Below are positions 36,849-54,294 of a DNA stretch of 64,000 nucleotides, piece by piece. Position numbers and translations under genes: made by a program. Within the stretch, counting starts at the first letter, position 1, and the number at the start of each line of letters is the position of its first letter. Source of the DNA: Tritonibacter multivorans (GTDB lineage Bacteria > Pseudomonadota > Alphaproteobacteria > Rhodobacterales > Rhodobacteraceae); the NCBI RefSeq assembly GCF_001458415.1, contig NZ_CYSD01000021.1, forward strand, positions 1-64,000. The letters are read 5' to 3'. The notes under the pieces are model-generated. The model searched no databases and had not been told where the DNA came from. It saw nothing but the letters and a program-made list of their open reading frames with translations.

Positions 36849-36974
36849 TCAGTCCAGCCGCACGTCGTCACCGGCGTGTTTTTCATCGGCTGCAAACCCG
36901 ACCTGGTCCAGCACCAGATCGGCGCAGACCGCAATCACGGCAATCAGGGCGAACCCCGCGAGCATTGCTTTCAT
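36849..36974 (-). CDS. 41-aa single-span membrane peptide
   Basis: An ATG preceded by GGAGGAGGAG opens 41 codons: MKAMLAGFALIAVIAVCADL, then VLDQVGFAADEKHAGDDVRLD. Residues 4-24 are hydrophobic; the rest is acidic and probably periplasmic. The start overlaps the stop of the WD40-cytochrome gene (ATGA) and the stop is 2 bp from the regulator start, so it is embedded in a tightly packed operon. The perfect ribosome-binding site and spacing are strong evidence for translation. It could be a small subunit or assembly factor of the membrane formate dehydrogenase complex. Confidence 0.75.
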   Translation of the reverse strand: MKAMLAGFALIAVIAVCADLVLDQVGFAADEKHAGDDVRLD

Positions 36975-38248
36975 TTCTCCTCCTCCCCTCCTGTGGCCTG
37001 TTTCAAAAAGGCAATCAAATCAGCCCGGTCCTCAGCGCCAGTGATGCGCTGCATCGGCATTTTAGAGCCGGGAATGTAATGGTCAGGTCCCAAATCAAAG
37101 AGGGCATCAATGCTTTCATCATTCCAGATGATCGCGGCCTGATCCAGTGTTTCAGAGTAGCGGTAGTCCTTTAGGCTGCCTGCGGGCCTGCCAAAGATCC
37201 CCGCCAGATGTGGCCCCGCCTTGCGCGTCCCATCGTCGCGGAGCGCATGGCAGATCGAACATTTCCGCAGGAACTGACGTTCCCCATTGCCGACGGTATC
37301 GGGCGCAATCAGGAAGGCGCGGCTGTCGCCGACGGGGTCGAACTCTCCCAACAGGGCCACGGGCCAGCCATAGATCACCGCGTCCAGCCCACCCGCCCAA
37401 AGCCGTGCACCGGGCTGGTCGAAGGCCAGCGCCCAGACGGGGCCTTCGCGCATGGCGCGAAAGTCGCGGGCGATACGCCAATTGCGGGTGTCCACCACCA
37501 TTATATAGCCTTGCCCGTCCCCCACGGCGAGCTGAGCCGTTTCTTTATGGTGCGCCAGCGCCAGAATGGGGCGTCTGTCGAGGGTGAAATCGGCAAGCTG
37601 CGCGCCGGTCTCTGCATCGATGATCCGCGTGGCCCCATCCACCGCGCCATAAGCCAGCCAGCCGTCCTGCACGACCAGCCGATTGATGCCAAACCCCTGC
37701 TCTACCAGAACCCGTGGCATGTCGCCTTCAATTCGCAGAATGCGGCCATCCATGGTGGCCGCAAACACTGTGCCCGTGGCATCAAAGGCAACGTCATTTA
37801 CACCCGCGCCCAAGGTCAACATCTGCGGTGCTTCCCCCATCAGCGACCAAAGCCCGACGGTCCCATCCCAGCTGGCCGCTGCCACTGTCCGCCCATCCGG
37901 CGACACAGACAGGGCGCGGATCTTCCCCTTGTGGCGCCCAAGCTCCACCGGTTTTGCCGCGCCCCAGTGCCAGATGGTGAAATCATCGCCTGCGGTGAAC
38001 AAATCCCCATTTTCAGCAAACGCCAGTGCTGTGACGGCCGCATCGTGCCGTTCCAGCCAGGCAGGCGTGCCCTGGTCCCACAGGGCTGCGGCATTATCGA
38101 AACTGGCAGAGGCCAGCCGTCCCGTGCCATTGGCCTCTACCGCCAGTGCCATTATCGGGCCGCCATGCCCCTTGAGGCTCAGGAACTCGTCTTCAGCAAT
38201 CGCCGCATCAGACAGGGCCATCAACAGCGCCAGAATAGCTACGCGCAT
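36971..38248 (-). CDS. WD40-repeat protein fused to cytochrome c
   Basis: A 425-aa exported protein. It has a signal peptide (MRVAILALLMALSDAAIAE), six or seven WD40-like blades (about residues 25-300, seen in phrases such as GHGGPIMALAV, HDAAVTALAFAENGDLF and GRTVAAASWDGTVGLW), and a C-terminal class I cytochrome c domain with haem motif CSICH at 330-334 and a Met ligand in GSKMPM near 397. The propeller would give a binding platform and the haem an electron-transfer site in the periplasm. It is 4 bp after the formate dehydrogenase gamma gene, so it probably docks with that complex. ATG 38248 begins the signal peptide; the longer frame does not. Confidence 0.88.
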   Translation of the reverse strand: MRVAILALLMALSDAAIAEDEFLSLKGHGGPIMALAVEANGTGRLASASFDNAAALWDQGTPAWLERHDAAVTALAFAENGDLFTAGDDFTIWHWGAAKPVELGRHKGKIRALSVSPDGRTVAAASWDGTVGLWSLMGEAPQMLTLGAGVNDVAFDATGTVFAATMDGRILRIEGDMPRVLVEQGFGINRLVVQDGWLAYGAVDGATRIIDAETGAQLADFTLDRRPILALAHHKETAQLAVGDGQGYIMVVDTRNWRIARDFRAMREGPVWALAFDQPGARLWAGGLDAVIYGWPVALLGEFDPVGDSRAFLIAPDTVGNGERQFLRKCSICHALRDDGTRKAGPHLAGIFGRPAGSLKDYRYSETLDQAAIIWNDESIDALFDLGPDHYIPGSKMPMQRITGAEDRADLIAFLKQATGGEEEK

Positions 38249-38252
38249 CGCC

Positions 38253-39485
38253 CTACTCCGCTGGATGGGCCCCTTTGGCGGATTTGGCCTTTTCCTCTTC
38301 CAGCACATCCTCAAGCCAGATCGAATGGTGCTGATGGGCCCAGGCCTCGTCGACTTCGCCAGACCCCATCGCGTCATAAGCGCCTTCCATGCCAACAGAG
38401 CCGATGTAGATATGGGCAATAATGATCGCCATCAGCACAAAGGCCATGATCGCGTGCCAGGCTTGCGCCAACTGCATTTCTTCTTGCGGCGCAAGCTCAG
38501 TTGGCAACACGCCAAAGCCCAGCGCCTGCGGCAGGCCAAGGTCGTTCAGCACAGTGAATGTTTTCGCGAACAGCGGCAGCTCAAACGGGAACAGCAGCGA
38601 CAGGCCGGAAACAGCGATTGAGCCCCCAAAGAGGATCACCGACCAGAAGATCACCTTCTGGCCCGCGTTAAACTTTTTGGCAGGCGGGTGTCTTTTGCCG
38701 ATGATGCCGCCGAACTGACGGATCCAGACCAGATCTGTGCGGCTGGGCAGATTGTGATGCACCCAGAACAAGAAGACCAAAACCAGCGCCAGCATAAACG
38801 GCCAAGCCACCGAATTGTGGATCCACTTGGAGGCAATGAGCAGCTGCGCGTTCACCTCTTTGCCAAGATAAGGCGCAATGGCGATGCGACCAAACAAACT
38901 CAGCAGACCGGTGAGTCCCAGCAGAATAAAGCTGCCCGCCAGCATCCAATGGGCCATACGTTCCACAAATTGGAAACGGACCACCGTGCGTCCGGTTGGC
39001 TCTGCGTCCAGTCCGATCCGCCCACGCAGCAGGTAAAAGACCACCAACGCCCAGAACATGCCAAACAACAGCCAGCCGCCATATTGGCGCAGCGGCCCTT
39101 CGCGGAAGGTCAGCCATGTCATGCCGCCATCCTGAACCAATGTCGCCGCCTCTGCGCCACCAGCAGAAACACGGATGTCAGCCGAATTGTAGCGCAGCGC
39201 GCGCCACAACTCCGGGTCAGATTGTCCTCCCAAAGTGCCCAGCTGCTGGGCGATGCCTTTGGCGCTATTTGGGTCTCCGGTGGCGTCCCGGCGAAAGCCA
39301 TCATCCAGCTGTTCGCCGCGTTGACGAGCCAAAATATCCTCGAGCGTCTGCGCCCCACCTGTGGCACTGCGGTCTGCTTCAGACATGGTCGCGCCGTCAT
39401 AGGCCGCGTCCTGTGCAAATGCAGCTGGCTGCACCAACAAAAGCGTGCAGACAACGGCCAAACATCCAAACAGCAGATTTTTCAT
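38253..39485 (-). CDS. Formate dehydrogenase gamma subunit (cytochrome b)
   Basis: A 410-aa membrane subunit of the FdnI/FdoI family. After a signal peptide (ending AAFAQ) come a roughly 100-residue periplasmic region and one extra helix (about 138-158). The di-haem cytochrome b core follows, with histidines in ERMAHWMLAG, KWIHNSVAWP, WHAIMAFV and AHIYIGS. It anchors the periplasmic FdhAB dimer and passes electrons to quinone. It is longer than E. coli FdnI (217 aa) because of the N-terminal extension, as in other proteobacterial FdhC proteins. Separated from fdhB by a TPR gene and a terminator. Confidence 0.92.
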   Translation of the reverse strand: MKNLLFGCLAVVCTLLLVQPAAFAQDAAYDGATMSEADRSATGGAQTLEDILARQRGEQLDDGFRRDATGDPNSAKGIAQQLGTLGGQSDPELWRALRYNSADIRVSAGGAEAATLVQDGGMTWLTFREGPLRQYGGWLLFGMFWALVVFYLLRGRIGLDAEPTGRTVVRFQFVERMAHWMLAGSFILLGLTGLLSLFGRIAIAPYLGKEVNAQLLIASKWIHNSVAWPFMLALVLVFLFWVHHNLPSRTDLVWIRQFGGIIGKRHPPAKKFNAGQKVIFWSVILFGGSIAVSGLSLLFPFELPLFAKTFTVLNDLGLPQALGFGVLPTELAPQEEMQLAQAWHAIMAFVLMAIIIAHIYIGSVGMEGAYDAMGSGEVDEAWAHQHHSIWLEDVLEEEKAKSAKGAHPAE

Positions 39486-39546: not shown

Positions 39547-40539
39547 TCAGGACAGGCGGGTCTTATTCAAAATTGTCTCAATGCGCGTCTTACGCATGTG
39601 TTCCGATGTCTTGGCCTGCGGGTCAGGCATTTTGTCCAGCACTTGCCGAATGCCGGAAGTCGCTGCCGGATAATTCATATCCCGCGCCACCAAGGCCGCC
39701 CGCTCCAGCCGTGTCAGGCCATGGGCCTCGTCTCCTTCGTTACAGTCGATCTGCCCCAGAAGGCTCAGCAAATGGCATTCCACCCGCTTGTCCTGATCCT
39801 CCAGCGCCAGCTGCAAGCCGTCCTCCAGCACACCGCGGGCCAGCCTGTGCTGTCCTTGCCGGATCAGGGCCGCTCCCAGCAGTTCGTGAAGATAGGGCAG
39901 CACCACTCGATTGTTGCAGGCGCGTGCCAGCACGAGGCCGCTGGCCGCTTGCACGCGGACCTCGCGCAGGTCGCCCCGCACGAGTTGATAGCGGCTCAGG
40001 TTCTGACACAACCGCGCCTGTTCGATCCCTTTGGCAATCTCTTTGGCCTGCGCCAAACACTCGCCCGCCTCGTCGATCTTTCCCAGATTGCTCAGAAGAC
40101 TGGCTTTGGTGGTCAAGAGATCCACGTGGCTGTCGAATGGGCCATTGCCATTCAGCAGCGCAAACGCGCGCGACACGGCCTGATCGGACGCGGCAAAGCG
40201 AAACTGGCTGAGATGCACAATCGCAAGAACCGAATACACGTCCGCCAGCGCATTCCGCGCGCCGGACGCGGCCAATGGTTCTATTGCTTGCTCGCATAAG
40301 ATCCGGGCGTCTTCCATTTCGCCCCGCCATTTGGCCTGCCATGCTAGCGTGCGCAGCGCCAGCCCCAGGTCTTTTTGGGCTTTTGGATCGTCTGCGGTCA
40401 TGTCTTGAACCAAAGCGGCCTGATGTCGACTGAGCGCGCGGTCGCGCCAGCGCTGTGTCCAGGCGATGTGGTTCAAAAACTTCGGTGATCGATGCACCGA
40501 AGGCTGTTGCGGCAAACTTTGAGACTTGAAAAGCGACAT
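39547..40539 (-). CDS. TPR-like repeat protein
   Basis: A roughly 330-aa helical protein made of tetratricopeptide-like repeats, with motifs such as L-A-D-V-Y-S-V-L-A-I-V-H-L, L-L-S-N-L-G-K-I-D-E-A-G-E-C-L and L-G-A-A-L-I-R-Q-G-Q-H-R-L-A-R. It ends in a basic tail. There is no signal peptide or membrane segment, so it is cytoplasmic. The start is unsure: ATG 40539 or ATG 40578 (13 residues more), neither with a clear ribosome-binding site. It lies between the beta and gamma subunit genes on the same strand. A role in assembly or regulation of the complex is only inferred from place. Confidence 0.72.
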   Translation of the reverse strand: MSLFKSQSLPQQPSVHRSPKFLNHIAWTQRWRDRALSRHQAALVQDMTADDPKAQKDLGLALRTLAWQAKWRGEMEDARILCEQAIEPLAASGARNALADVYSVLAIVHLSQFRFAASDQAVSRAFALLNGNGPFDSHVDLLTTKASLLSNLGKIDEAGECLAQAKEIAKGIEQARLCQNLSRYQLVRGDLREVRVQAASGLVLARACNNRVVLPYLHELLGAALIRQGQHRLARGVLEDGLQLALEDQDKRVECHLLSLLGQIDCNEGDEAHGLTRLERAALVARDMNYPAATSGIRQVLDKMPDPQAKTSEHMRKTRIETILNKTRLS

Positions 40540-40741
40540 GAAACGCACCGAAACAATGTTTCCCCGCACAAGCCACATAGTCGCGTCGCGTCACATACGG
40601 AGAAAGAACAGACAGGCCCACTGTATCAACAAATCCGTCTGGGCAAAGCTTCATCCGCCGACCGCGCAAAATGCAGCCGATAAAGACAGCCGAAGAAAAG
40701 TGCGGAAGTGCCATATGTCGCCTGAAGTCCGATGCGCAAGA

Positions 40742-40785: not shown

Positions 40786-41379
40786 TCAGCCGCCTTTCTG
40801 GTCGTAGGCCGTGCCCCAGCCCCAAGCGCCGGAGCCAAAGCCGCGTGCCACAACGCGCTCGCGGTAGACGGCGGACACAACGTCGCCATCACCGGCCAGA
40901 AGCGCCTTGGTGGAACACATCTCGGCGCAGATGGGCAGCTTGCCCTCGGCAATCCGGTTGCGACCGTATTTGGCGAACTCGGCAGTGGAGTGGGTCTCTT
41001 CGGGGCCACCGGCGCAGAAGGTACATTTGTCCATCTTGCCGCGGCTGCCAAAGTTGCCCGCCTGCGGATACTGCGGCGCGCCAAAGGGGCACGCATAGAA
41101 GCAGTAGCCACAGCCAATACAAAGATCTTTGGAGTGCAGAACCACCCCTTCTTCGTTCTGGTAGAAGCAGTCCACCGGGCAGACCGCCATACAGGGCGCA
41201 TCCGAGCAATGCATACAGGCCACCGAGATCGAGCGTTCGCCCGGTTTGCCGTCATTGATCGTCACCACCCTTCGGCGGTTGATGCCCCAGGGCACCTCGT
41301 GCTCGTTCTTACACGCTGTAACACAGGCGTTGCATTCAATGCAGCGCTCGGCATCACAGAGGAATTTAGCTCGTGCCAT
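40786..41379 (-). CDS. Formate dehydrogenase beta subunit (four [4Fe-4S] clusters)
   Basis: A 197-aa ferredoxin-like subunit that wires the catalytic subunit to the membrane cytochrome b. Four cysteine groups are visible: CIECNACVTAC (residues 13-23), CMHCSDAPCMAVCP (about 55-68), CIGCGYCFYACP (about 87-98) and CTFC with the later C-A-E-M-C. It is shorter than E. coli FdnH because it lacks the C-terminal membrane helix; this is usual for the FdhB of Shewanella-type and alphaproteobacterial complexes. It is 12 bp after the catalytic subunit gene. Confidence 0.93.
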   Translation of the reverse strand: MARAKFLCDAERCIECNACVTACKNEHEVPWGINRRRVVTINDGKPGERSISVACMHCSDAPCMAVCPVDCFYQNEEGVVLHSKDLCIGCGYCFYACPFGAPQYPQAGNFGSRGKMDKCTFCAGGPEETHSTAEFAKYGRNRIAEGKLPICAEMCSTKALLAGDGDVVSAVYRERVVARGFGSGAWGWGTAYDQKGG

Positions 41380-41391
41380 ATCGTCTCCTCC

Positions 41392-44286
41392 TTACGCTGG
41401 CATGATTTTACAGAGCGTGGCTTTGGTCTCTTGCATCTGCGTGACAGAGTCATAGCCATAGGTCTGCGCGGTATTGGTGCTTTCGCCCAGGACATAGGGG
41501 TCAGCGCCTTCGGGGTATTTGTCCCGCAGGTCCTTCCCTTGGAAATGGCCGCCGAAGTGGAACGGCATGAAGGCCACGCCTTCGCCGACCCGTTCGGTCA
41601 CCATCGCCATCACCTTGACCTTGCCGCCCTCGGGGCCTTCGACCCAGACCTGAGCCCCATCGCGCACACCAATGTTATTGGCATCCCGCGGATGGATCTC
41701 CACGAACATGTCTTGCTGCAACTCAGCCAGCCAGGGGTTCGAACGGGTCTCGTCACCGCCGCCTTCGTATTCCACCAGACGCCCAGAGGTCAGGATGATC
41801 GGGTAGTCTTTCGACACATCCTTTTTCTGGATCGAGGCATACATGGTCGGCAGGCGATAGAACTTCCGGTCCTCGTAGGTCGGGTAGTCCTCCACCAGAT
41901 CGCGGCGGTTGGTATAGAGCGGCTCGCGGTGTAGCGGCACCGGATCCGGGAAGGTCCAGACAACCGCACGGGCCTTGGCGTTCCCGAAGGGCGCACAGCC
42001 ATGTTTGATCGCCACCCGCTGGATGCCGCCCGACAGGTCGGTCTTCCAGTTGGTTTTCGGACCCGCAACCGCATCAATCGCGGCGCGTTCTTCCGGGGTC
42101 AGATCGCCATCCCAGCCCAGATCCATCAGCATCTGCATGGTGAACTCAGGATAGCCATCCTGAATTTCCGCACCGGGGTTTGACACACCATCTGCCAGCA
42201 GATTGTCGCCGTCGCGTTCCACCCCGAACCGGGCGCGGAAACACAGGCCACCTTCGGCCACCGGAACCGACATGTCATATAGGTTCGGCGTACCAGGATG
42301 CCCCATCTCGGCGGTGCCCCAGCACGGCCAGGGCATACCGTAGTAATCCCCATCCGCAGGCCCACCAATCGCTTGCAACGTGGTGCGGTCAAACGTGTGC
42401 TGGTTTGCCATATGCAGCTTGATCCGCTCCGGGCTCTGGCCGGTATAGCCAATGGTCCAGAGGCCCCCGTTCAGCTCGCGGGTAATGCTTTCGACATTCG
42501 GGGTCTCAGCGTCCTCCATTTCGATATTGCGGAACAGACGATCCCCCCAGCCGAACTTATTGGCGAACTTGGCGATGATCACGTGATCCGGCAGGCTCTC
42601 GAACAGCGGGTCGACCACTTTGTCGCGCCATTGCAGCGACCGGTTCGACGCCGTGACAGACCCACGGGTTTCAAACTGCGTACAGGCGGGCAGCAGATAG
42701 ACCCCGTCCTCGCGATCCTGCAACACCGCAGACACCGTGGGATAGGGGTCAATCACGACCAGCATGTCCAGCTTTTCCATCGCCGTCTTCATTTCCGGCA
42801 TCCGGGTCTGAGAGTTCGGCGCATGGCCCCAAAGCACCATGGCACGCACCGGGTTCGGCTGGTCGGTGTTTTCCGGGTCTTCCAGAACACCATCGATCCA
42901 ACGGGACACAGGGATACCGGTCAGGTTTTGCAGGGATTTTTCCTTGCCATCTGCGCCGGTGACCTTGGCAAACTGCCCCGCAAGCCAGTCTGGGTCTTCG
43001 CCCCAAACCCGCGCCCAATGGCCCCAGGCGCCTGCCGACAGGCCATAGTAGCCCGGCAGGGTGTGGGACAGCACGCCCAGATCGGTTGCGCCCTGAACAT
43101 TGTCATGGCCACGGAAGATGTTCGTCCCACCACCCGAGGTGCCCATATTGCCAAGCGCCAGCTGCAGCACGCAGTAGGCCCGCGTGTTGTTGTTGCCGTT
43201 GGTGTGCTGCGTGCCGCCCATACACCAGATCACGGTGCCGGGACGGTTGTTGGCCATGGTGCGGGCCACACGCTTCAGCTGCGAGCCGGGCGTGCCGGTG
43301 ACGCGCTCCACTTCTTCAGGGGTCCATTTCGCGACTTCCTCGCGGATCTGTTCCATCCCCCAGACACGGGTGCGGATGAACTCTTTGTCCTCCCAGCCGT
43401 TCTCGAAGATGTGCCACAGAATACCCCAAACCAGCGCCACGTCGGTGCCGGGACGGAAGCGGACATATTCATCCGCATGGGCCGCCGTGCGGGTAAAGCG
43501 TGGGTCGCAGACGATCAGTGGCGCATTATTCTGCTCTTTGGCGCGCAGCACATGCAGCAGCGAAACTGGGTGTGCCTCGGCCGGGTTGCCGCCAATGATA
43601 AAGATCGCCTTGGAGTTATGGATGTCATTGTAGCTGTTGGTCATGGCGCCGTAGCCCCATGTATTTGCAACACCTGCAACAGTGGTCGAATGGCAGATCC
43701 GCGCCTGATGATCGACGTTATTGGTGCCCCAATAGGCCGCGAACTTGCGGAACAGATAGGCCTGTTCGTTGTTATGTTTCGCCGAGCCGAGCCAGTAGAC
43801 GCTGTCAGGTCCGCTTTCTTCGCGGATTTTCATCATCCCGTCGCCGACCTCATTGATGGCCTGCTCCCAAGAGATGCGCTTCCACTCTCCGCCCTCTTTT
43901 TTCATCGGGTATTTCAGACGGCGTTCACCGTGGGCGTGTTCACGGACCGAAGCCCCTTTGGCGCAATGCGCGCCAAGGTTAAACGGGCTGTCCCAGCCGG
44001 GCTCCTGCCCCACCCAGACGCCGTTTTGCACCTCTGCGATGACCGTGCAGCCAACCGAACAATGGGTGCAGACGGATTTCACCGCCTCGACCGCACCCGC
44101 AGCGGCGGTTTGTGCGCTGGCTTGGGTGACTGTCCCCCCCGTGGCGCTGATTGCGGCTAGTCCGCCAATGGCCAGACCGGATCCGCGCAGGAACGCGCGG
44201 CGGTCAACCGAGGCCTCACCGGCCTTCGACAGGATACTTGCCGTCCGGGGGCGTCGCGCAACCCCGTTGGTCTTTTTCCTTAGCAT
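41392..44286 (-). CDS. Periplasmic formate dehydrogenase catalytic subunit (Tat-exported)
   Basis: A 964-aa molybdenum/tungsten bis-MGD formate dehydrogenase of the FdnG/FdhA type. The Tat signal has the motif D-R-R-A-F-L-R-G (arginines 29-30) followed by a hydrophobic stretch, so it is exported folded. One [4Fe-4S] cluster motif is CTHCSVGC with a fourth Cys at 108. The metal ligand is Cys198 in ARICHSTTVAG, where E. coli has selenocysteine. GGTQHTNGNNNTRAYC lies in the active-site domain. It oxidises formate in the periplasm, delivering electrons through the beta and gamma subunits. It is preceded by the Tat peptide and TorD-like chaperone genes. Confidence 0.95.
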   Translation of the reverse strand: MLRKKTNGVARRPRTASILSKAGEASVDRRAFLRGSGLAIGGLAAISATGGTVTQASAQTAAAGAVEAVKSVCTHCSVGCTVIAEVQNGVWVGQEPGWDSPFNLGAHCAKGASVREHAHGERRLKYPMKKEGGEWKRISWEQAINEVGDGMMKIREESGPDSVYWLGSAKHNNEQAYLFRKFAAYWGTNNVDHQARICHSTTVAGVANTWGYGAMTNSYNDIHNSKAIFIIGGNPAEAHPVSLLHVLRAKEQNNAPLIVCDPRFTRTAAHADEYVRFRPGTDVALVWGILWHIFENGWEDKEFIRTRVWGMEQIREEVAKWTPEEVERVTGTPGSQLKRVARTMANNRPGTVIWCMGGTQHTNGNNNTRAYCVLQLALGNMGTSGGGTNIFRGHDNVQGATDLGVLSHTLPGYYGLSAGAWGHWARVWGEDPDWLAGQFAKVTGADGKEKSLQNLTGIPVSRWIDGVLEDPENTDQPNPVRAMVLWGHAPNSQTRMPEMKTAMEKLDMLVVIDPYPTVSAVLQDREDGVYLLPACTQFETRGSVTASNRSLQWRDKVVDPLFESLPDHVIIAKFANKFGWGDRLFRNIEMEDAETPNVESITRELNGGLWTIGYTGQSPERIKLHMANQHTFDRTTLQAIGGPADGDYYGMPWPCWGTAEMGHPGTPNLYDMSVPVAEGGLCFRARFGVERDGDNLLADGVSNPGAEIQDGYPEFTMQMLMDLGWDGDLTPEERAAIDAVAGPKTNWKTDLSGGIQRVAIKHGCAPFGNAKARAVVWTFPDPVPLHREPLYTNRRDLVEDYPTYEDRKFYRLPTMYASIQKKDVSKDYPIILTSGRLVEYEGGGDETRSNPWLAELQQDMFVEIHPRDANNIGVRDGAQVWVEGPEGGKVKVMAMVTERVGEGVAFMPFHFGGHFQGKDLRDKYPEGADPYVLGESTNTAQTYGYDSVTQMQETKATLCKIMPA

Positions 44287-44642: not shown

Positions 44643-45251
44643 TCAGGCCCCCATCCGGAACCCTTCCGCCTCGATCTCCATGAACGCGCGCCCCACAGAG
44701 GCCACCGCTGCATAAAGAACCGAATTTTTCGCCGCCTCGAGGTCGGCAAAAAAATGACCGGCCCAGGGGCCGACATGGCGGTTGAAAAACATCTTCTGAT
44801 CCTCAAGCGAGGTCGGGTCGCCAAAGCGGCCCACAATCAGCGCGCCCATCATTTCCATGAGCGAGGCGATATTGTCCTCGGGCTCGAACACCGTCTCAGA
44901 CCGCGCAAGGCCCCGCGCCAGCATGTCATTGCGCAACACAGCCAGCGGTTTCTCATTGAGGAAACCTGTCAAATAATAGCTGGCAAACGGCAGCAGTTCA
45001 CCGCGGCCCAGACCAATAAACAGCGCATTGTATTCGCGTTCCACCGCCGCCGGTTTGCTGCGTTTTGCCACCCGCGCGAGTGTATTGATGGCGCGGCCCA
45101 GATCGCTGTCGTCGCCCTGAAGCTCTGCGGTCTGATCCAACAGCATCTGATCCGGCGGACCCGCCAGCATCACCCCGAGGTAGTTGTAAAGATCCGCGCG
45201 AAGGCGGTCTTCTTCACTGACGGTCGTTTTGGCCTCAAGGGCTACTGTCAT
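44643..45251 (-). CDS. TorD-family molybdoenzyme chaperone
   Basis: A 202-aa all-helical chaperone of the TorD/DmsD family. The typical motif E-x-E-x-N-A-L-F-I-G (VEREYNALFIGLGRGELLPFASYYLTG, residues about 78-104) and E-P-E-D-N-I-A-S-L-M-E-M near 133 are present. Such proteins bind the Tat signal of the partner molybdoenzyme until the cofactor is inserted; the catalytic subunit two genes downstream is the natural client. ATG 45251 follows AGGGAGGAG; the longer frame is non-homologous. Confidence 0.92.
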   Translation of the reverse strand: MTVALEAKTTVSEEDRLRADLYNYLGVMLAGPPDQMLLDQTAELQGDDSDLGRAINTLARVAKRSKPAAVEREYNALFIGLGRGELLPFASYYLTGFLNEKPLAVLRNDMLARGLARSETVFEPEDNIASLMEMMGALIVGRFGDPTSLEDQKMFFNRHVGPWAGHFFADLEAAKNSVLYAAVASVGRAFMEIEAEGFRMGA

Positions 45252-45279
45252 GTCGTTCTCCTCCCTAGAACTCATCACG

Positions 45280-45900
45280 TCAAATCGCCTCCACCTCGAC
45301 ATCCGCGTCGAAGGCAAAGCGCATGCGCCGGGGCGGTGCAAAATCCGCCTCGGGCTCTGCTTGCAAAGTCAGATCCTCCTGCGGCGCTGGCGCCTCTGTC
45401 AGGGCCACGACAGGCGTCTCGTCCGGTGTCTCTTCAGGCGTCTCTATTTCTTCGTTGGGCTGATCATCCGGCTCAGGGTTCTCGGCCTCTTGCGCCTCAA
45501 GCTCGGCTTGCCGGGCCAGCTCTTCCACATGCGCTGTCATGCCTTTGCCAACCTGATAGGCGGTTTGGATGTTCTCCACCGCCAGAGCCGCATCGGTGAA
45601 ATCCTCGCCGTAATCCACCAGCCCGTCGATATTGGCGAGCAGCGGATTGGTGCCCCAGAGCCTGCGCAGGGCGCGGGTCTTCAGCCGCGGGGGCACTGCG
45701 TCCTTCAGGAACACGGTGAAATCATCGCCTGCCCCAAGGCTTTCGGGGTCCGGAAGGTCCAACTCTGCCAACAGTTCTTCATCGGTTTTGTCGGCCTGTT
45801 CGGCCTCGCGCGCTGCCACAGTGGCGGCGGCCTCCAGTTGCGCGTCAGTCTCAGCTTCCGCCTCAACGGCGGCACGACGGCGGGACCAGAAATCACTCAT
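45280..45900 (-). CDS. DUF3306 family protein
   Basis: A 206-aa DUF3306 protein: starts MSDFWSRRRAAVEAE. A conserved block follows around residues 35-110 (L-P-D-P-E-S-L-G-x-G-D-D-F, then L-R-R-L-W-G-T-N-P and D-G-L-V-D-Y-G-E-D-F). A low-complexity Glu/Pro tail makes up the last 70 residues. Genes of this family accompany DUF3305 and formate dehydrogenase genes; the Shewanella relative is called FdhT. Role unknown, presumably maturation. It overlaps the DUF3305 gene by 4 bp. Confidence 0.9.
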   Translation of the reverse strand: MSDFWSRRRAAVEAEAETDAQLEAAATVAAREAEQADKTDEELLAELDLPDPESLGAGDDFTVFLKDAVPPRLKTRALRRLWGTNPLLANIDGLVDYGEDFTDAALAVENIQTAYQVGKGMTAHVEELARQAELEAQEAENPEPDDQPNEEIETPEETPDETPVVALTEAPAPQEDLTLQAEPEADFAPPRRMRFAFDADVEVEAI

Positions 45901-46496
45901 TGCAGCCGCCCCTTCTTCCGGGACGCGGGCGACCGGTAGACATCTGCTGTCTGCGCAATGCGCGCATCGCCAATGCCGTCCTCAATAAGATCCGTGTTCG
46001 TGCGATCGCGGCGGCGTTTCTTGAAGGTCTCTTTCCGGAAATGCGCCTTGGTGAAATCGCGCACCCAGGCCACCAGCCCTTCGGGCATCGGCACTTTTTC
46101 CACCTGATCCTCGCCGGTGTCAGCATAGTCCTGCGCCTCAAACGGCGAGGCGGTCACCAGCGTAACTTCGGGGCGGTCGCCACCGTCACGGAGCACCACA
46201 TAGACCGACGGCACAGACGCGGTGAGCCCCTGCATGTACGCCTCAGCATCTGTGCGATAGAGTTCGAGCGGCAGGGTCACAGCGTGGTATTCCTCCGCCT
46301 CCCCTTCCGACCGCAGCAGGGTCCAGTCTGCCTCGGCTGCGCCGGGCAAAACGGCCACCACCTTCCAGACCCACTTCTGCCAAACGGTCACCCCCGCCGT
46401 GCGGCGGATGACAATGCCCAAGGGCAACGTGACGGATTTCAGTTCGGTTTGGTTGGCGGCAAAATTCAAGCGGTTTCGACCCTGACAGCAGTTCAC
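45897..46496 (-). CDS. DUF3305 family protein
   Basis: A roughly 199-aa DUF3305 protein. The conserved N-terminal block is L-P-L-G-I-V-I-R-R followed by W-V-W-K-V-V-A-V-L-P-G, then L-P-L-E-L-Y-R-T-D-A-E-A-Y and V-T-A-S-P-F-E-A-Q-D-Y. First gene of the leftward formate dehydrogenase operon (DUF3305, DUF3306, chaperone, Tat peptide, catalytic, beta). The start is uncertain: GTG 46496 has GGAG nearby, TTG 46469 is also possible, and ATG 46583 would add a non-conserved 29 residues. Confidence 0.8.
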   Translation of the reverse strand: MNCCQGRNRLNFAANQTELKSVTLPLGIVIRRTAGVTVWQKWVWKVVAVLPGAAEADWTLLRSEGEAEEYHAVTLPLELYRTDAEAYMQGLTASVPSVYVVLRDGGDRPEVTLVTASPFEAQDYADTGEDQVEKVPMPEGLVAWVRDFTKAHFRKETFKKRRRDRTNTDLIEDGIGDARIAQTADVYRSPASRKKGRLQ

Positions 46497-46830
46497 TTTT
46501 TCGAACTCCAGTCTGCCTTCCTCGACGTGATGGCCGGAAGTGTACAATCGTCGGCTGACCCTTTTCGCGGGTTTTGGGGTCATTCTGGGCGCCTTCGCCA
46601 GACAAAGACTGGGAGGAGGGACGGAATGTCCATCTCGACAAATTCAATCAGGCTTTCCCAACGTCACCTTCGGGTCTTCCCCAAGAGCGAATCACCTCAG
46701 GGATCGGCAACTTCGCCCGAACATCGCAGCAGCGAAAAACTGTTTACCGAAAAAGGGAATCATGCCTAGGCTAGACACCCAATGGTCGCATTCGCGGCCC
46801 TGATCCGACCGGAACAAAGGCGAGAATTAC

Positions 46831-48795
46831 ATGACCAAACGATTGATTTTGTGCAATTGTTCCGAAAGTCAGCCGCTTGATAGCGCCGCGATTGAACAGG
46901 CCACCGGGTTGCCCTGCTCGGCCGTCGAAACCACCCTCTGCGCCCCGGGAAACGCCACCGCCGCAACAGCGATGAACGACGGGGATGCAATTTTTTGCTG
47001 CACCCAAGAAAGCCGTCATTTCACCGAACTGGCCACGGATCTTGGGGTGGAAGCGCCGCTGTTTCTTGACCTGCGGGACCGGGCCGGATGGTCCGAACAG
47101 GCCAAGGACACCCCGGCAATCCTACCCAAATTGTCCGCCTTAGTGGCCGAAGCCCAGCTGCCCGCCCCAGCGACCAAGACCGTGGATGTGGCATCCGAAG
47201 GGCTGTGCCTGATCCTGTCCCCCGCCGATCCAGAAGTTGCCTTGGCCACAGCAAGCCGCCTGTCAGACATCCTTGGTGTCACAGTTCTTTTGCCCGCCAC
47301 AGCCGACGCGCCGGAAAGCCGCGGGTTCGACGCAATACGCGGGTCGCTGCGCAGCGCGCGCGGGGCCTTTGGTGGCTTCACGGTGACCGTCGACGCGCTG
47401 CAAGCGCTGGACCATACGGGACGGCAATGGTCGTGGACCGCCCCCCGCGACGGCGGCCGCGCGGAATGCGATATTATCATTGATCTGTCCGGCAATGCCC
47501 CTCTGTTCCCCGCCCCCGAAAAACGCGAGGGCTACCTGCGTGCCGATCCAAAATCGCCAACCGCTGTCGCCGATGCCGTGCTGGCTGCCAGCCAGATGGT
47601 TGGCACGTTTGAAAAGACCCTGTTCCTGCGCAACGAACCGCTGCTCTGCGCCCATTCCCGCGCCGAAAAGACCGGCTGTACCCGTTGTCTGGACGCCTGC
47701 CCCACCGGCGCGATCACGTCCAATGGGGATCATGTGAGCATTGATCCCATGATCTGCGCTGGCTGCGGGGCGTGTTCGTCGCTCTGCCCGTCCAGCGCAA
47801 TCACCTATGATGCGCCACCGACAGATCTGCTGATGCGCCGCATTCAGACACTGGCCAAGGCGTTCCTTGATGCGGGGGGCCAGACGCCCCGTTTGCTGGT
47901 GATCGATGCACATGTTGCCGAGATGATCCGCCTTGCCGCGCGCTTTGACCGCGGCCTGCCAGCGGATGTCATCCCTCTGGAAGTTGAGGCCATCGCGACC
48001 TTCGGCCATGCCGAGGCCTTGGCAGCCCGCGCGGCTGGCTTTGTCCAGACCCAGATCCTGCCGGGGCCACGCGCGGATGTGGATGTTCTCCACCACGAAA
48101 TCGCGCTGACAAATGCCATTTCGCCAAACGGTGCCCAACTGATCGAACCGCCAGACCCCACTGCGCTTTGTGATCTCCTCTATGCCGAATGCGACCTCCC
48201 CGCGCCTGTGGAAACGCCGCAGCGTCCCATGGGCAGCCGTCGCCAGATCACCCGGCAAGCTGCTCTGGCTTTGCACTCCGAAGGAGAGGCCTTGCCGCTT
48301 CCCGAAGGCGCTCCTTATGGCGCGGTGCTTGTAGATACTGAATCCTGCACCCTCTGTCTGTCCTGTGTGTCGCTTTGCCCCTCTGGCGCGCTGGGTGACA
48401 ATGAGGACATGCCACAGCTACGGTTTCAGGAGGACGCCTGCCTGCAATGCGGCCTATGTGCCAATGTCTGCCCCGAGGACGCCATAACTTATGAACCGCG
48501 CCTGAACCTGTCGCCCGAGGCCCTGTCGCAGCAGGTGCTCCACGAAGAGGAGCCCTTTGCCTGCGTCGAATGCGGCGCGCTCTTTGGGGTGAAATCCACC
48601 ATTGAACGCATCACCGAACAGCTTGCGGGCAAACACGCCATGTTTGCCAACCCGGCCGCCGCGCGGATGATCCAGATGTGCGACAGCTGCCGGGTCAATG
48701 CGCAGTTCCATCAGGACAGCTCCCCGTTCCAAGGGGCTGATCGCCCGCGTGTACGCACCACCGAAGACTATCTCTCCAAACGACGCGACCACTGA
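46831..48795 (+). CDS. 4Fe-4S polyferredoxin associated with formate dehydrogenase
   Basis: A 654-aa iron-sulfur protein with at least four ferredoxin-type clusters in two pairs. Residues about 273-325 hold C-T-R-C-L-D-A-C-P and CAGCGACSSLCP; residues about 505-550 hold CTLCLSCVSLCP and CLQCGLCANVCP. The C-terminal part adds two C-x2-C pairs (F-A-C-V-E-C-G and M-C-D-S-C-R), possibly a metal site. There is no signal peptide, so it is cytosolic. It diverges from the formate dehydrogenase operon, as do similar genes in Shewanella, and may supply electrons or sulfur during cofactor insertion. The 330-bp region before it holds the divergent promoters, which I cannot resolve. Confidence 0.88.
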   Translation: MTKRLILCNCSESQPLDSAAIEQATGLPCSAVETTLCAPGNATAATAMNDGDAIFCCTQESRHFTELATDLGVEAPLFLDLRDRAGWSEQAKDTPAILPKLSALVAEAQLPAPATKTVDVASEGLCLILSPADPEVALATASRLSDILGVTVLLPATADAPESRGFDAIRGSLRSARGAFGGFTVTVDALQALDHTGRQWSWTAPRDGGRAECDIIIDLSGNAPLFPAPEKREGYLRADPKSPTAVADAVLAASQMVGTFEKTLFLRNEPLLCAHSRAEKTGCTRCLDACPTGAITSNGDHVSIDPMICAGCGACSSLCPSSAITYDAPPTDLLMRRIQTLAKAFLDAGGQTPRLLVIDAHVAEMIRLAARFDRGLPADVIPLEVEAIATFGHAEALAARAAGFVQTQILPGPRADVDVLHHEIALTNAISPNGAQLIEPPDPTALCDLLYAECDLPAPVETPQRPMGSRRQITRQAALALHSEGEALPLPEGAPYGAVLVDTESCTLCLSCVSLCPSGALGDNEDMPQLRFQEDACLQCGLCANVCPEDAITYEPRLNLSPEALSQQVLHEEEPFACVECGALFGVKSTIERITEQLAGKHAMFANPAAARMIQMCDSCRVNAQFHQDSSPFQGADRPRVRTTEDYLSKRRDH

Positions 48796-48805
48796 TCTGA
48801 TGATG

Positions 48806-49558
48806 TCACTTAAGCTGCAAGGGCTGGCCCAGATCTGCCGGAGCCATGGCCGCGACAAAGGCCAGAATGCTTTCCAGATCCTCCAGCGTCATTTCGACCG
48901 GCACAACCGGGCTAGGCCGGTCTTCGGGGAAAGGATCGGTCACGTCTTCGATCTGCGTGAAAGCGGGATGAGGTTTCAGAGCGAAGAAAGCTTGAAATCG
49001 CCCTTCCCAGTCGGGGAAGGTCCGCAGCACCGCAAACGACGGGGTCGAGCCAATGGCGTTCATTCGGTTCGCCTCGGACACCACATGGCACCGGCCGCAG
49101 TGGGTCAGCGCCAGCGCCTGCCCCTCAAGCGTGTTGCCTTCCGCAACGGTGTCATCCTCAATGACTTCGGCAGCAATTGGGGCAGCAAACAGTGCTATGC
49201 CTTCTGGCGCAAAACTGACCACCGTACGTTGGCCCACGTCGGACATCAACCAATCTGCGAATTTCACACTGCCTGCATGGGCCTCCGCCTGAAGGTCAAG
49301 CCGCCAGTTTCCGCCCGCATCCGAGAAAACCGCACTGCCTGCGTTGCGGCCAAGGCGCGCAGTGCTGTCCCCTTCAACAAGATCAACTTTGACCCGATGC
49401 TTCAGCGTGAAGCGCGGCAGGATGAACTTGAACAGACCAGTGTCCGCCAGCGCGGGCGGGGCAGACAGCCGCACAGGCCCGTCCTCGGCGTGTGCGCCCG
49501 CTCCAAACAACGCGAAACAGACCGAAACCCAAACTGATGCACCAAATACCCGTCCCAT
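48806..49558 (-). CDS. Substrate-binding-domain remnant fused to cytochrome c
   Basis: A 250-aa exported protein: signal peptide (residues 1-24), a region at 28-130, then a cytochrome c domain with haem motif CGRCH at 154-158. The region 28-130 resembles the two ends of a tungstate/molybdate-binding protein with the middle removed. D-T-G-L-F-K-F-I-L-P near 39-48 matches N-S-G-L-A-D-V-L-L-P of the window's own TupA. F-A-D-W-L-M-S-D-V-G-Q near 100-110, with G-I-A-L-F, matches L-E-D-W-L-T-S plus E-A-L-F at the TupA end. Convergent with the polyferredoxin gene. ATG 49558 begins the signal peptide. Confidence 0.8.
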   Translation of the reverse strand: MGRVFGASVWVSVCFALFGAGAHAEDGPVRLSAPPALADTGLFKFILPRFTLKHRVKVDLVEGDSTARLGRNAGSAVFSDAGGNWRLDLQAEAHAGSVKFADWLMSDVGQRTVVSFAPEGIALFAAPIAAEVIEDDTVAEGNTLEGQALALTHCGRCHVVSEANRMNAIGSTPSFAVLRTFPDWEGRFQAFFALKPHPAFTQIEDVTDPFPEDRPSPVVPVEMTLEDLESILAFVAAMAPADLGQPLQLK

Positions 49559-49655: not shown

Positions 49656-50723
49656 GTGCCCCTGACCCGCGAGACCGTGCTTGATGCGCTGAAGACCCTG
49701 AATGACCCCACCACCGGCACCGATATGGTGGCCGCTGGCCTTGTGCGCGCCCTCTCTGTCGAAGGTGGCAGCGTGCGGTTCGTTATGGAAATTGACGGCG
49801 CAAAAGCAGATACTTACGCAGCTCTGCGTGCCAAAGCCGAAGCGCTGGTCGCCGCGCTGGACGGGGTCGAAAAGGCCAGTGTGATGATGACGGCCCATGC
49901 GCAAAAAGCCCCGCCGCCAGATCTGAAGCCTTCGCGCCCGGCAGAACCCGCAGGCCCGCAGAAAATCCCCGGTGTGGATCGCATTATTGCCGTGGCTTCT
50001 GGCAAAGGCGGGGTGGGAAAATCCACTGTGTCGGCCAATATTGCCTGCGCCCTGGCACAAGCCGGGCGCCGGGTCGGGCTGCTGGACGCCGATGTCTATG
50101 GCCCAAGCCAGCCGCGCATGTTGGGGGTTTCGGGCCGCCCGGCAAGCCCGGACGGCAAAATCATTCTGCCTCTGCGCAACCATGGTGTGACCATGATGTC
50201 CATTGGCCTGATGACCAATGACGATCAGGCTGTTGTCTGGCGTGGGCCAATGCTGATGGGCGCGCTGCAGCAGATGATGATGCAGGTGCAATGGGGCGCG
50301 CTGGACGTACTGATTGTTGACCTGCCACCGGGCACCGGTGACGTACAGATGACGCTGGCGCAGAAGGCGCAGGTGGATGGGGCGGTGGTTGTGTCAACGC
50401 CTCAGGACGTGGCCCTGATCGATGCGCGCAAAGGCATCGATATGTTCCAGAAGCTCAATGTGCCGATCCTTGGCATGGTGGAAAACATGTCGACGCATAT
50501 CTGCTCGAACTGCGGCCATGAAGAGCACATCTTTGGCCATGGCGGCGTGAAAGCCGAGGCCGAGAAGCTGGGCGTGTCCCTGCTGGCCGAGGTGCCGCTG
50601 CATCTGGATGTGCGACTGGCCGCAGATGGCGGGGCGCCCATTACCGTCTCCAAACCCGACAGCCCGCAGGCCAAGGCGTTTCAGGACATTGCCGCCCAGC
50701 TGGTCGAAGGCGGTCACGCATGA
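49656..50723 (+). CDS. mrp: Mrp/ApbC P-loop iron-sulfur carrier protein
   Basis: A 355-aa Mrp protein, an ATPase that carries and inserts [Fe-S] clusters. Residues 1-90 are the MIP18/DUF59 domain (starting PLTRETVLDALKTLNDP). The deviant Walker A motif SGKGGVGKST lies near 116-125. The C-terminal CSNCGHEEHIFG holds the cluster-bridging C-x2-C. It starts with GTG 49656, with AGGAGG 9 bases upstream, and overlaps the following gene by 4 bp. Fe-S-rich formate dehydrogenase subunits next door are possible clients. Confidence 0.95.
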   Translation: MPLTRETVLDALKTLNDPTTGTDMVAAGLVRALSVEGGSVRFVMEIDGAKADTYAALRAKAEALVAALDGVEKASVMMTAHAQKAPPPDLKPSRPAEPAGPQKIPGVDRIIAVASGKGGVGKSTVSANIACALAQAGRRVGLLDADVYGPSQPRMLGVSGRPASPDGKIILPLRNHGVTMMSIGLMTNDDQAVVWRGPMLMGALQQMMMQVQWGALDVLIVDLPPGTGDVQMTLAQKAQVDGAVVVSTPQDVALIDARKGIDMFQKLNVPILGMVENMSTHICSNCGHEEHIFGHGGVKAEAEKLGVSLLAEVPLHLDVRLAADGGAPITVSKPDSPQAKAFQDIAAQLVEGGHA

Positions 50724-52058: not shown

Positions 52059-52883
52059 TTATTCTGCGTTGAACACAAACAGAGCCTCGCCGCCGATCTG
52101 ATAGCCGTTGATCAGCTTTGCGGCTTTGGCCGAGGTCAGCCAGTCTTCAAGCGCAGCAGCGTGATCCGTTTTGACATGGTCATGTTTTTCAGGGTTCACC
52201 GGCAGATAGGCGTATTGGTTGAAGAGCACCGGATCGCCCGCAAACAGCAGCGCCAAACCCGCCTTATTGCCAAAATTCAACCAGCTGGCGCGGTCCGACA
52301 TAATGTAGGCACCCATGCCGGAGGCTGTGTTTAGCGCTGCGCCCATGCCCGCTCCGACCGCGCGATACCAGCTCCCGAATCCTTCGGGATCTTGCCCGGC
52401 CGCGCGCCACAGGCTCAGCTCTTTCTTATGGGTGCCGCTGTCATCGCCGCGGCTGACAAAAAGCGCCTCAGCCCTGGCGATCTGGCCCAGCGCATCCGCA
52501 GCCGACCCGGCCTGCGCGATCCCAGCGGCATCATCTGCGGGGCCGATAAAGACAAAGTCATTGTACATGATCTCGCGCCGATGCGTGCCGTGCCCTGCGG
52601 CCAGAAACGCCTCCTCCGCCTTGCGGGAGTGGACCAAAATGGCATCAACATCGCCAGCTTCGCCAAGGCGGATGGCCTGACCGGTCCCAACGACCAAGAG
52701 CTGCACCTCAAGATCCAAATCCTTTTGGATTTCAGGCAGCAGAACATCCGCAAGACCAGAGTTGTGGAAAGAGGTGGTCACGGCCAGTTTCATCTGTTCG
52801 GCCAAAGCAGCGGTGGCACCAAAAGCAGCAAGACCCACGGATAGAACCGAACCTGCAACCATCTGTTTCAAAATACATTTCAT
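52059..52883 (-). CDS. tupA: Tungstate ABC transporter substrate-binding protein
   Basis: A 274-aa periplasmic binding protein. Signal peptide ending ATAALAEQ, then KLAVTTSFHNSGL, the TupA-type oxyanion-binding segment (other TupA proteins read T-T-T-S-T-x-D-S-G-L). V-G-T-G-Q-A near residue 70 and S-R-G-D-D-S-G-T-H-K-K-E near 155 are also family features; the second Ser/Thr cluster binds the anion. It belongs to the tungstate (TupA) rather than the molybdate (ModA) branch by these motifs, but molybdate cannot be excluded. It is the last gene of the tup operon, overlapping tupC by 4 bp. Confidence 0.9.
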   Translation of the reverse strand: MKCILKQMVAGSVLSVGLAAFGATAALAEQMKLAVTTSFHNSGLADVLLPEIQKDLDLEVQLLVVGTGQAIRLGEAGDVDAILVHSRKAEEAFLAAGHGTHRREIMYNDFVFIGPADDAAGIAQAGSAADALGQIARAEALFVSRGDDSGTHKKELSLWRAAGQDPEGFGSWYRAVGAGMGAALNTASGMGAYIMSDRASWLNFGNKAGLALLFAGDPVLFNQYAYLPVNPEKHDHVKTDHAAALEDWLTSAKAAKLINGYQIGGEALFVFNAE

Positions 52884-53593
52884 TCAACAATGTCTCCTCT
52901 TAGAAAGGCCGAAGCCTGCGGTGTCTCCGGCTGGTCGAAAAAGCGATCCGCCGGGGAATACTCATGAACACGCCCGCCCAAGACAAAGATCACCTCATCC
53001 GCCAACCGGCGCGCCTGCCCCATATCATGGGTGGACATGACAAGGCGCGTGCCCGACGTGCTGGCGCCCTGCAAAATGGCCTCGATCTCGCGGGTGGCAC
53101 GCCCATCCAACGCGGCGCAGGGCTCGTCCAGAAACAAGACCTCGGGGCTGCGGATCAGGGCGCGGGCCAGCGCCAGTTTCTGCCGTTCACCGCCAGACAG
53201 GCGCAGCGCATCACGCCGCGCGGCGGGGGCCAGATCGACCCGGTCCAACCACGCCTCTGCCTCGGCCTGCGCAGCCTTGCGGTCCATGCCGCCCAGCCGC
53301 AGCGGATAGGCCAGATTGTCCAGCACAGAGCGGCGCATCATGATCGGGGTCTGAAACACAAAGGCCTGTTTGCGGCGCGCTTCCTCCAGCGGGCAGGACC
53401 AGCGCAGGCTGCCTTCGCGCAGACGCTCCAGCCCATGCATCATCCGCAACAGCGAGGTCTTGCCAGACCCATTGGGGCCGATGACAATAGTGGTGCCCTG
53501 CCCTGCCAATTCCAGATCCACAGGGCCAATCCAGCGCCGCCCGCGACGCCCCAAACAGGCGCCTTCGATTTTCAACGGAAGCAAAGCCATCAC
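52880..53593 (-). CDS. tupC: Tungstate ABC transporter ATP-binding protein
   Basis: A 237-aa ABC ATPase: Walker A IGPNGSGKTSLLR near residues 38-50, signature LSGGERQKLALARAL near 130, Walker B VLFLDEPCAALD near 153. Shorter than ModC because it lacks the C-terminal molybdate-binding regulatory domain, as expected for TupC. The gene overlaps tupB and tupA by 4 bp each. Confidence 0.9.
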   Translation of the reverse strand: MMALLPLKIEGACLGRRGRRWIGPVDLELAGQGTTIVIGPNGSGKTSLLRMMHGLERLREGSLRWSCPLEEARRKQAFVFQTPIMMRRSVLDNLAYPLRLGGMDRKAAQAEAEAWLDRVDLAPAARRDALRLSGGERQKLALARALIRSPEVLFLDEPCAALDGRATREIEAILQGASTSGTRLVMSTHDMGQARRLADEVIFVLGGRVHEYSPADRFFDQPETPQASAFLRGDIVE

Positions 53594-54294
53594 CAGCGCC
53601 CCCCGCGTTCGGTCTGACCCAGCCAGTGGATCGCCAGATTGACCAACAGGGCCAGCGCGATCAGCACAAAGCCCAGCGCCAGAGCCATGGCAAATTCGCC
53701 CTTGCCCGTTTCCAGCGCGATGGCCGTGGTCAGAACGCGGGTGGCATGGTCAATATTGCCGCCCACCACCATAATCGCGCCCACCTCGCCAATGGCGCGG
53801 CCAAACCCGGCAAGGGCTGCGGTCAAAAGCGCCCGGCGCCCGTCCCACAACAGCGTGGCAATGCGCTGGCGCTGGGTGGTATTCATGGAAATCAGCAGAT
53901 CGTGATAGTCGCTCCAGAGTTCACGCAGAGATTGATGCGCGATGGAGGCGATCAACGGCACAATGATGATCACCTGCGCGATCACCATGGCCGTCGGCGT
54001 GAACAGCAGCCCCAGAACGCCCAAGGGACCAGACCGCGACAGGGTAACATAGACAATCAGGCCAACAACCACCGGCGGCAGCCCCATCAGCGCATTGAGC
54101 ACCGCGATCACACTGCGCCGCCAGCGAAACCGCCGCACCGCGAGCAAAGCCGCCAGGGGCAGCGCTAGGGCCGACGCCACGACCAACGCCGTCAGCGTCA
54201 CCTGCAGTGACCGCAGGGTGATTTCGACCAGATCGCCGTTCAGTGTTATCACCAGCCAAACGGCCTGCTGCAATCCCAGCCACAAGTCCGACAT
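53590..54294 (-). CDS. tupB: Tungstate ABC transporter permease
   Basis: A 234-aa permease with five hydrophobic segments and the coupling motif A-A-L-A-G-F-G-R-A-I-G-E-V-G-A (about 158-172) that contacts the ATPase. It belongs to the TupB/ModB group. It is the first gene of the leftward tupB-tupC-tupA operon, with a structured region upstream. The order with the binding protein last is unlike the usual tupABC. Confidence 0.9.
   Translation of the reverse strand: MSDLWLGLQQAVWLVITLNGDLVEITLRSLQVTLTALVVASALALPLAALLAVRRFRWRRSVIAVLNALMGLPPVVVGLIVYVTLSRSGPLGVLGLLFTPTAMVIAQVIIIVPLIASIAHQSLRELWSDYHDLLISMNTTQRQRIATLLWDGRRALLTAALAGFGRAIGEVGAIMVVGGNIDHATRVLTTAIALETGKGEFAMALALGFVLIALALLVNLAIHWLGQTERGGRW

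Follow-up and report, generated by a model that had tools for sequence, protein, structure and literature searches.

Analysis of the window, the whole 64,000-nucleotide stretch of Tritonibacter multivorans DNA considered here, identified a gene whose predicted product is an exported mono-haem cytochrome c with an N-terminal domain (N-domain) that is a trimmed lobe A of a TupA-type tungstate-binding protein, and co-occurrence of this cytochrome with a formate dehydrogenase (fdh) marker gene was shown in the sampled genomes. The parts of the protein are known, while their combination was not recognised in the open-access literature (most subscription papers lie outside it), including the available text of PMC5517513, PMC4139814, PMC4464133 and PMC13197769. 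Our preferred explanation, to which we give an even chance, is that the protein serves as an accessory periplasmic electron carrier for the W/Mo formate dehydrogenase FdhABC, with a ligand-free TupA lobe kept for docking.

The 250-aa protein runs from a signal-like start through an N-domain of about 100 residues and a linker to a c-type haem domain (Table 1), export being predicted from a signal peptide judged by eye. The sequence marks claimed in the preliminary description were all present, namely TGL (residues 40–42), ILP (46–48), DWLMS (102–106), ALF (122–124) and CGRCH (154–158). Pfam and NCBIfam left the window protein unnamed; Cytochrom_C was matched at E 0.11, under cut-off, and the sole NCBIfam match (E 0.0019, far under cut-off) covered 21 residues round the haem motif. 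A search of the protein's own genome with the cytochrome returned a single match. Orthologues carried on five plasmid records were annotated once as 'c-type cytochrome' and four times as 'hypothetical protein'; plasmid-borne genes were located on NZ_CP081121.1, NZ_CP019316.1, NZ_CP126148.1, NZ_CP021914.1 and NZ_CP155732.1 (Sulfitobacter, Tateyamaria, Sagittula). One further copy (G889:C2:115502-116068) contained an in-frame TGA and a match that stopped early, and is possibly a decaying gene.

Table 1. Features of the cytochrome gene, the fdh cluster and the tup genes in the window.
Feature	Position	Strand	Remarks
TupA-lobe / cytochrome c gene	48806..49558	-	250 aa + stop, one ORF
Putative signal peptide, residues 1-24	49487..49558	-	By eye: hydrophobic stretch, AHA end, then EDG
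N-domain, residues 25-127	49178..49486	-	Single TupA-type lobe A, shortened, without lobe B
Residues 33-36 APPA	49451..49462	-	Site of TTTS tungstate motif in TupA
Residues 48-53 PRFTLK	49400..49417	-	R49 and K53 fixed across cytochrome family
Cytochrome c domain, residues 141-250	48809..49138	-	
Haem motif CGRCH, residues 154-158	49085..49099	-	C, R, C, H invariant 150/150
His197 in PHPAFTQ	48968..48970	-	Predicted second axial haem ligand; H in 150/150
654-aa protein, several 4Fe-4S motifs (Fer4 gene)	46831..48795	+	Convergent neighbour, 10 bases between genes
Mrp/NUBPL-type P-loop ATPase (mrp)	49656..50723	+	Divergent neighbour; start codon chosen by eye
fdhA, formate dehydrogenase alpha (Mo/W type)	41392..44286	-	Fdh-alpha 5.4e-144, 481 bits, under cut-off 666
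fdhB, 4Fe-4S subunit	40786..41379	-	
fdhC, cytochrome b561-type membrane subunit	38253..39485	-	
TorD-like chaperone	44643..45341	-	Nitrate_red_del, over cut-off
DUF3306 protein of fdh cluster	45280..45900	-	
DUF3305 protein, fdh-cluster marker	45897..46583	-	
tupA, full-length two-lobed	52059..52883	-	tung_bind_TupA 6.5e-51, 173 bits, under cut-off 400; PBP_like_2 over cut-off
ABC ATPase, tupC by position	52880..53593	-	PstB-type 4.3e-41 best; none over cut-off among matches listed
Permease tupB	53590..54294	-	ABC_perm1 over cut-off; tung_perm_TupB 6.6e-47, under cut-off

Profile comparison of 40 N-domains with 29 TupA sequences (29 of the 34 TupA rows; profile length 252 positions) by hhalign gave E-values of 1.6e-15 for the N-terminal part and 8.9e-12 for the C-terminal part, in comparison to 0.084 and 0.018 for the best of 10 column-shuffled controls and 0.21 for the reversed profile of the whole N-domain. 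Both TupA ends were matched in order by 40/40 N-domains, the E-values referring to the set of 40, and at the family level these profiles showed a similarity to TupA far beyond chance. The N-domain of the window member matched TupA profile positions 5–38 and 215–246 with 39–214 unmatched, indicating that approximately 176 TupA positions have been replaced by 32 residues in this form. The preliminary description had proposed that the start and end of TupA are retained with the middle third gone, and was correct as to the two ends, but far more than a third is missing. It had also offered the window's own tupA as a direct comparison; that gene does start 2.5 kb away, but BLASTP of the window N-domain against its product reached only E 0.13 and 0.30, even though the two best pieces were the correct ones in the correct order. 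Close kinship with the window's own TupA was rejected, the pairwise score not being significant. This TupA is a divergent form that reads VTTSFHNSGLADVLLPE, as do 9/34 TupA rows with small changes; the other 25/34 mostly read STTSTx[NQ]SGL and are nearer to the N-domain by eye.

The five highest PDB matches to the N-domain profile were 3muq (2.9e-07), 5my5 (1.1e-05), 3cvg (1.2e-04), 3lr1 (2.3e-04) and 3kn3 (0.001), of which 5my5 and 3lr1 are named as tungstate-binding, 3cvg is named 'putative metal binding protein', and 3muq and 3kn3 have been assigned to TupA (PMC5517513). In Pfam searches with single N-domains there was no match for the window member and solute-binding-protein families appeared for a few of the 40; PBP_like_2, the Pfam family of the window's TupA, was absent among the families listed for these 40 domains. 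A first Foldseek search with a low-confidence whole model placed unrelated structures in the top rows and TupA structures at ranks 10, 11 and 36, and TupA headed the other structure-match lists, which also derived from low-confidence models. In agreement with the preliminary description, the fold predicted by these low-confidence models was a type II binding-protein lobe that matched the TupA/ModA lobe, and the N-terminal region was conserved in orthologues. We interpret the N-domain as a trimmed lobe A of a TupA-type binding protein, with which (NF041772; 5my5, 3lr1, 3muq) it has in common the order of lobe A elements and the SGL...LP and WLxS...G...F patterns.

The extent of the deletion can be read against the D. 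alaskensis TupA structure 5my5, where lobe A comprises residues 2–76 and 201–251, lobe B comprises residues 91–200, and the cleft residues are T9–T11, S12 and H59 in lobe A and R118, T124 and D170 in lobe B (PMC5517513). Among the long forms of the fused cytochrome, L039 matched TupA 3–81 and 214–248 (82–213 unmatched) and L037 matched 6–80 and 196–248 (81–195 unmatched), so that the loss in these proteins extends only slightly past lobe B and the hinge. The window form has been cut further, with most of the sequence between the first 38 and last ~40 TupA positions gone. By profile matching to TupA, the N-domain showed neither the two lobes with a hinge that mark TupA nor the lobe B region holding R118, T124 and D170. 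The four residues aligned with the tungstate motif TTTS included at least three Ser/Thr in 0/117 sequences, a count that left out 38 of the 155 rows (22 with an N-end missing the search pattern and 16 lobe-less or weak matches), and these positions were mostly A-P-x-A/E in the cytochrome family. Tungstate binding by the N-domain would not be expected from these residues and is predicted to be absent.

An Arg located eight residues past the Gly of SGL was present in 117/117 cytochromes versus 3/29 TupA sequences and, together with the missing lobe B, the replaced TTTS and the attached haem domain, sets the fused cytochrome apart from TupA. A Lys or Arg four residues past this fixed Arg also occurred in 117/117 cytochromes, yet in 15/29 TupA sequences as well, so this K is no novelty of the cytochromes; the P preceding the fixed Arg was part of the search pattern. 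Across the 14 pairs close enough to pass the filter, pN/pS was 0.25–0.55 for the N-domain versus 0.07–0.32 for the haem domain, figures that are rough since synonymous changes were near saturation in many pairs and pairs shared members. These values showed that the N-domain evolves under constraint.

In the haem-domain alignment, comprising the 150 of 155 sequences that scored above 90 bits, the two Cys, Arg and His of CxRCH as well as G146, P173, F175, P196 and His197 were invariant in 150/150. The CxxCH motif is common to this domain and class I cytochromes c (Cytochrom_C, cytochrome c2), with a weak match at the haem end, but the usual axial Met of class I was unfixed (Met at the class I place, 223, in 45/150; Met166 in 94/150) and an invariant His was found instead. 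This combination predicts a bis-His haem, one probably held by two His ligands, although invariance alone is no proof. PDB matches to the haem domain were weak (best E 0.022). Cytochrome c549 and PsbV matched over the length at E 0.091 and 0.12 but were given no weight, as by position their second His presumably does not line up with His197. At E 1e-8, a haem-domain search of 398 genomes drawn from the phylum matched 12, all of the same class and seven in the same family.

The fdhA product of the window carries a Tat-like signal by eye. TorD/DmsD, DUF3305, DUF3306 and formate_TAT form a gene set common to the window cluster and the fdh cluster of PMC4464133, one difference being that the main text of that paper does not contain the term 'cytochrome c'. 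A TPR-like protein is encoded between fdhB and fdhC (39547-40578, minus strand), for which there was no match above 28 bits among the matches listed in 40 neighbourhoods, some of them short stretches. Beside fdhC, positions 36971-38419 (minus strand) encode a protein with a cytochrome c domain (Cytochrom_C E 3.4e-09) after its WD40 beta-propeller, a second odd fusion whose relatives adjoin fdhC in other fdh clusters (L112, L114).

Gene mapping across 41 loci, which were hand-picked with lobe-less loci excluded, three genomes entered twice (L041/L124, L049/L122, L050/L123) and some stretches short, found DUF3305, DUF3306 and the Fer4 gene in 40/41, fdhA and torD in 39/41, mrp in 36/41, and tupA within the stretch in 14/41. 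The Fer4 gene (654-aa type) lay on the opposite strand to the cytochrome in 40/40 loci holding it. A group of 20 loci (L086–L105), chosen from family-draw matches and biased to high scores and long contigs, had the fdh cluster in all and tupA in 10. The tie to formate dehydrogenase genes suggested in the preliminary description was borne out by these loci and by the marker counts below; it had also proposed a tally of fdh and tup proximity, in which fdh was nearly always present but tup was a weak clue.

Genomes were sampled in draws of 394 from the family, 292 from the order, 385 from the class and 398 from the phylum, each taken from a larger group and mutually overlapping. In the family draw 141/394 genomes matched, of which G059 and G392 held plain TupA, leaving 139 cytochrome genomes. 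The DUF3305 marker was present in 138 of these 139 versus 52/255 genomes without the cytochrome, which amounts to 190/394 genomes with the marker, 138 of them with the cytochrome. The one exception (G008) is an 82% complete genome; its cytochrome gene sits at the end of a contig, where the mrp side of the cluster is in place. DUF3305 was also found in 17/17 genomes with stand-alone, lobe-less or weak cytochrome matches, although the weak matches G624 and G750 among them may not be true orthologues. It is important to note that DUF3305 also occurs fused to MobA and is therefore a marker, not proof, of fdh. TupA-like proteins were present in 79/79 DUF3305-marker genomes tested, of which 42 had the cytochrome and 37 did not (E 1e-20; no score exceeded the curated cut-off; marker-bearing genomes only); being equally present in both, TupA is uninformative on the cytochrome and was rejected as a discriminator.

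Eleven marker genomes without the cytochrome were inspected. Six of them (L218–L223; four from the 52 marker-only genomes and two from another draw) kept the gene order with Fer4 adjoining mrp, and the 54–252 bases between these genes left no room for a cytochrome gene, indicating that FdhABC does not need the cytochrome. L218, L219 and L220 are of the window's own genus and have an fdh cluster with no cytochrome between Fer4 and mrp, and L223 has its Fer4 gene broken across two frames. L225–L228 showed another arrangement, so some of the 52 marker-only genomes may carry another kind of cluster, and L224 ended at a contig end.

The haem-domain tree included 148 of the 150 rows (L059 and L061 dropped) over 107 columns, with 10/145 inner branches strong, and had its root set by seven stand-alone cytochromes from other families (branch SH-aLRT 95) with 141 rows opposite. 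Its rows comprised 100 short forms, 15 long forms, 22 not classed and 11 without a lobe. Long forms made up 7/26 rows outside the derived group versus 8/115 inside (derived-group branch 99), and short forms were also found on deep branches (L053, L105). On this tree at least 11 changes are required for the label 'long' and three for 'no lobe', so that length has changed often, and the order of the forms is supported but weakly resolved. Four lobe-less rows (L042, L043, L044, L063) were nested inside the fused clade. L042, L043 and L044 had no fdh gene within the 12–20 kb fetched and their genomes hold DUF3305 elsewhere, and lobe-less L063 (the L106 locus) is still in an fdh cluster; this may point to an association between lobe and cluster, although four cases prove nothing. 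The surroundings of L042–L044 include a chemotaxis-type kinase, patatin, glutamine synthetase and asparaginase.

Stand-alone cytochromes of 130–160 aa from other alphaproteobacterial families (L064, L065, L066, L069; loci L107, L108, L109, L112) share with the fused protein the haem domain, CxRCH, PSF, PH and fdh neighbours. They are unlike the fused cytochrome in being without the TupA lobe and in forming the outgroup branch. The presence of stand-alone forms within the fdh clusters of those families (L107, L108, L109, L112 and, more weakly, L114) suggests that the cytochrome predates the fusion and acquired its lobe later; the alternative is lobe loss in the other families.

With regard to function, the ancestor would have been a stand-alone cytochrome encoded in the fdh cluster that gained a TupA copy at its N-terminus, and this copy would have lost its second lobe and tungstate site to become a ligand-free single lobe, which most members trimmed further and a few lost altogether. 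FdhABC would oxidise formate in the periplasm with FdhC passing electrons to quinone, while the cytochrome haem may move electrons between FdhABC and a periplasmic partner, as a side path or a way in. The lobe, kept as a docking or positioning module, would hold the cytochrome near its partner, a candidate contact being the fixed Arg of PRFx[LF][KR]. Docking, two-His ligation and electron transfer with FdhABC are what we infer, whereas the homology to TupA, the loss of ligand residues, the constraint on the lobe and the co-occurrence with the fdh marker were shown. Presence of the cytochrome in 138/190 marker genomes fits an optional accessory; against such a carrier, 52 sampled genomes have the marker but no cytochrome, and FdhC should already be passing electrons to quinone. 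Expressed as a single solute-binding-protein lobe, cut free and deprived of its ligand site, that now serves as a protein-docking module bringing a two-His cytochrome c to a periplasmic W/Mo formate dehydrogenase, the proposal is tentative and may well prove incorrect.

Another reading, which we consider unlikely though worth serious attention, is that the lobe is a decaying remnant that does nothing itself, left by an accidental fusion that the working cytochrome behind it tolerates. The four lobe-less rows nested in the fused group, one of them in an fdh cluster, indicate that the lobe is dispensable at least sometimes, and the higher share of long forms outside the large derived clade (7/26 versus 8/115) and a lobe evolving faster than the haem domain may be interpreted in the same way. 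However, pN/pS was below 0.56 in 14/14 pairs, the Arg was retained in 117/117 sequences, and an N-domain match or sequence was found in 136/139 cytochrome genomes, the exceptions being G004, G338 and G054. It is improbable that the protein helps to mature or quality-control the W/Mo enzyme instead of working in its electron chain. Its presence follows a cluster in which TorD, DUF3305/3306 and the Mrp-type ATPase are likely maturation genes, but cofactor insertion into Tat substrates takes place in the cytoplasm, 52 marker genomes are without the cytochrome, and the conserved haem site points to redox work.

Docking of the lobe on the TupB permease, linking redox state to tungstate import, appears very improbable; the lobe is TupA-derived and TupA-like proteins occurred in all 79 marker genomes tested, but TupA was as common in the 37 without the cytochrome, and tupA lay within the stretch in 14/41 loci. 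The preliminary description had offered a redox partner or an oxyanion sensor, and the former is our best reading, whereas a sensor that binds tungstate or molybdate through its TupA-homologous N-domain and signals through the haem is scarcely credible and was rejected on residues, as the TTTS positions are lost (0/117 with at least three Ser/Thr) and lobe B, which would supply R118, T124 and D170, is missing.

In summary, this analysis describes the binding lobe of a transport protein carried into an electron-transfer protein, living intermediates included, and puts forward a likely accessory electron carrier for a formate dehydrogenase system with a marker found in 190/394 sampled genomes of the family. 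If true, half of a binding protein would have been put to a use of a new kind, and every stage would be represented among living organisms: no fusion, whole lobe, trimmed lobe and lobe lost.
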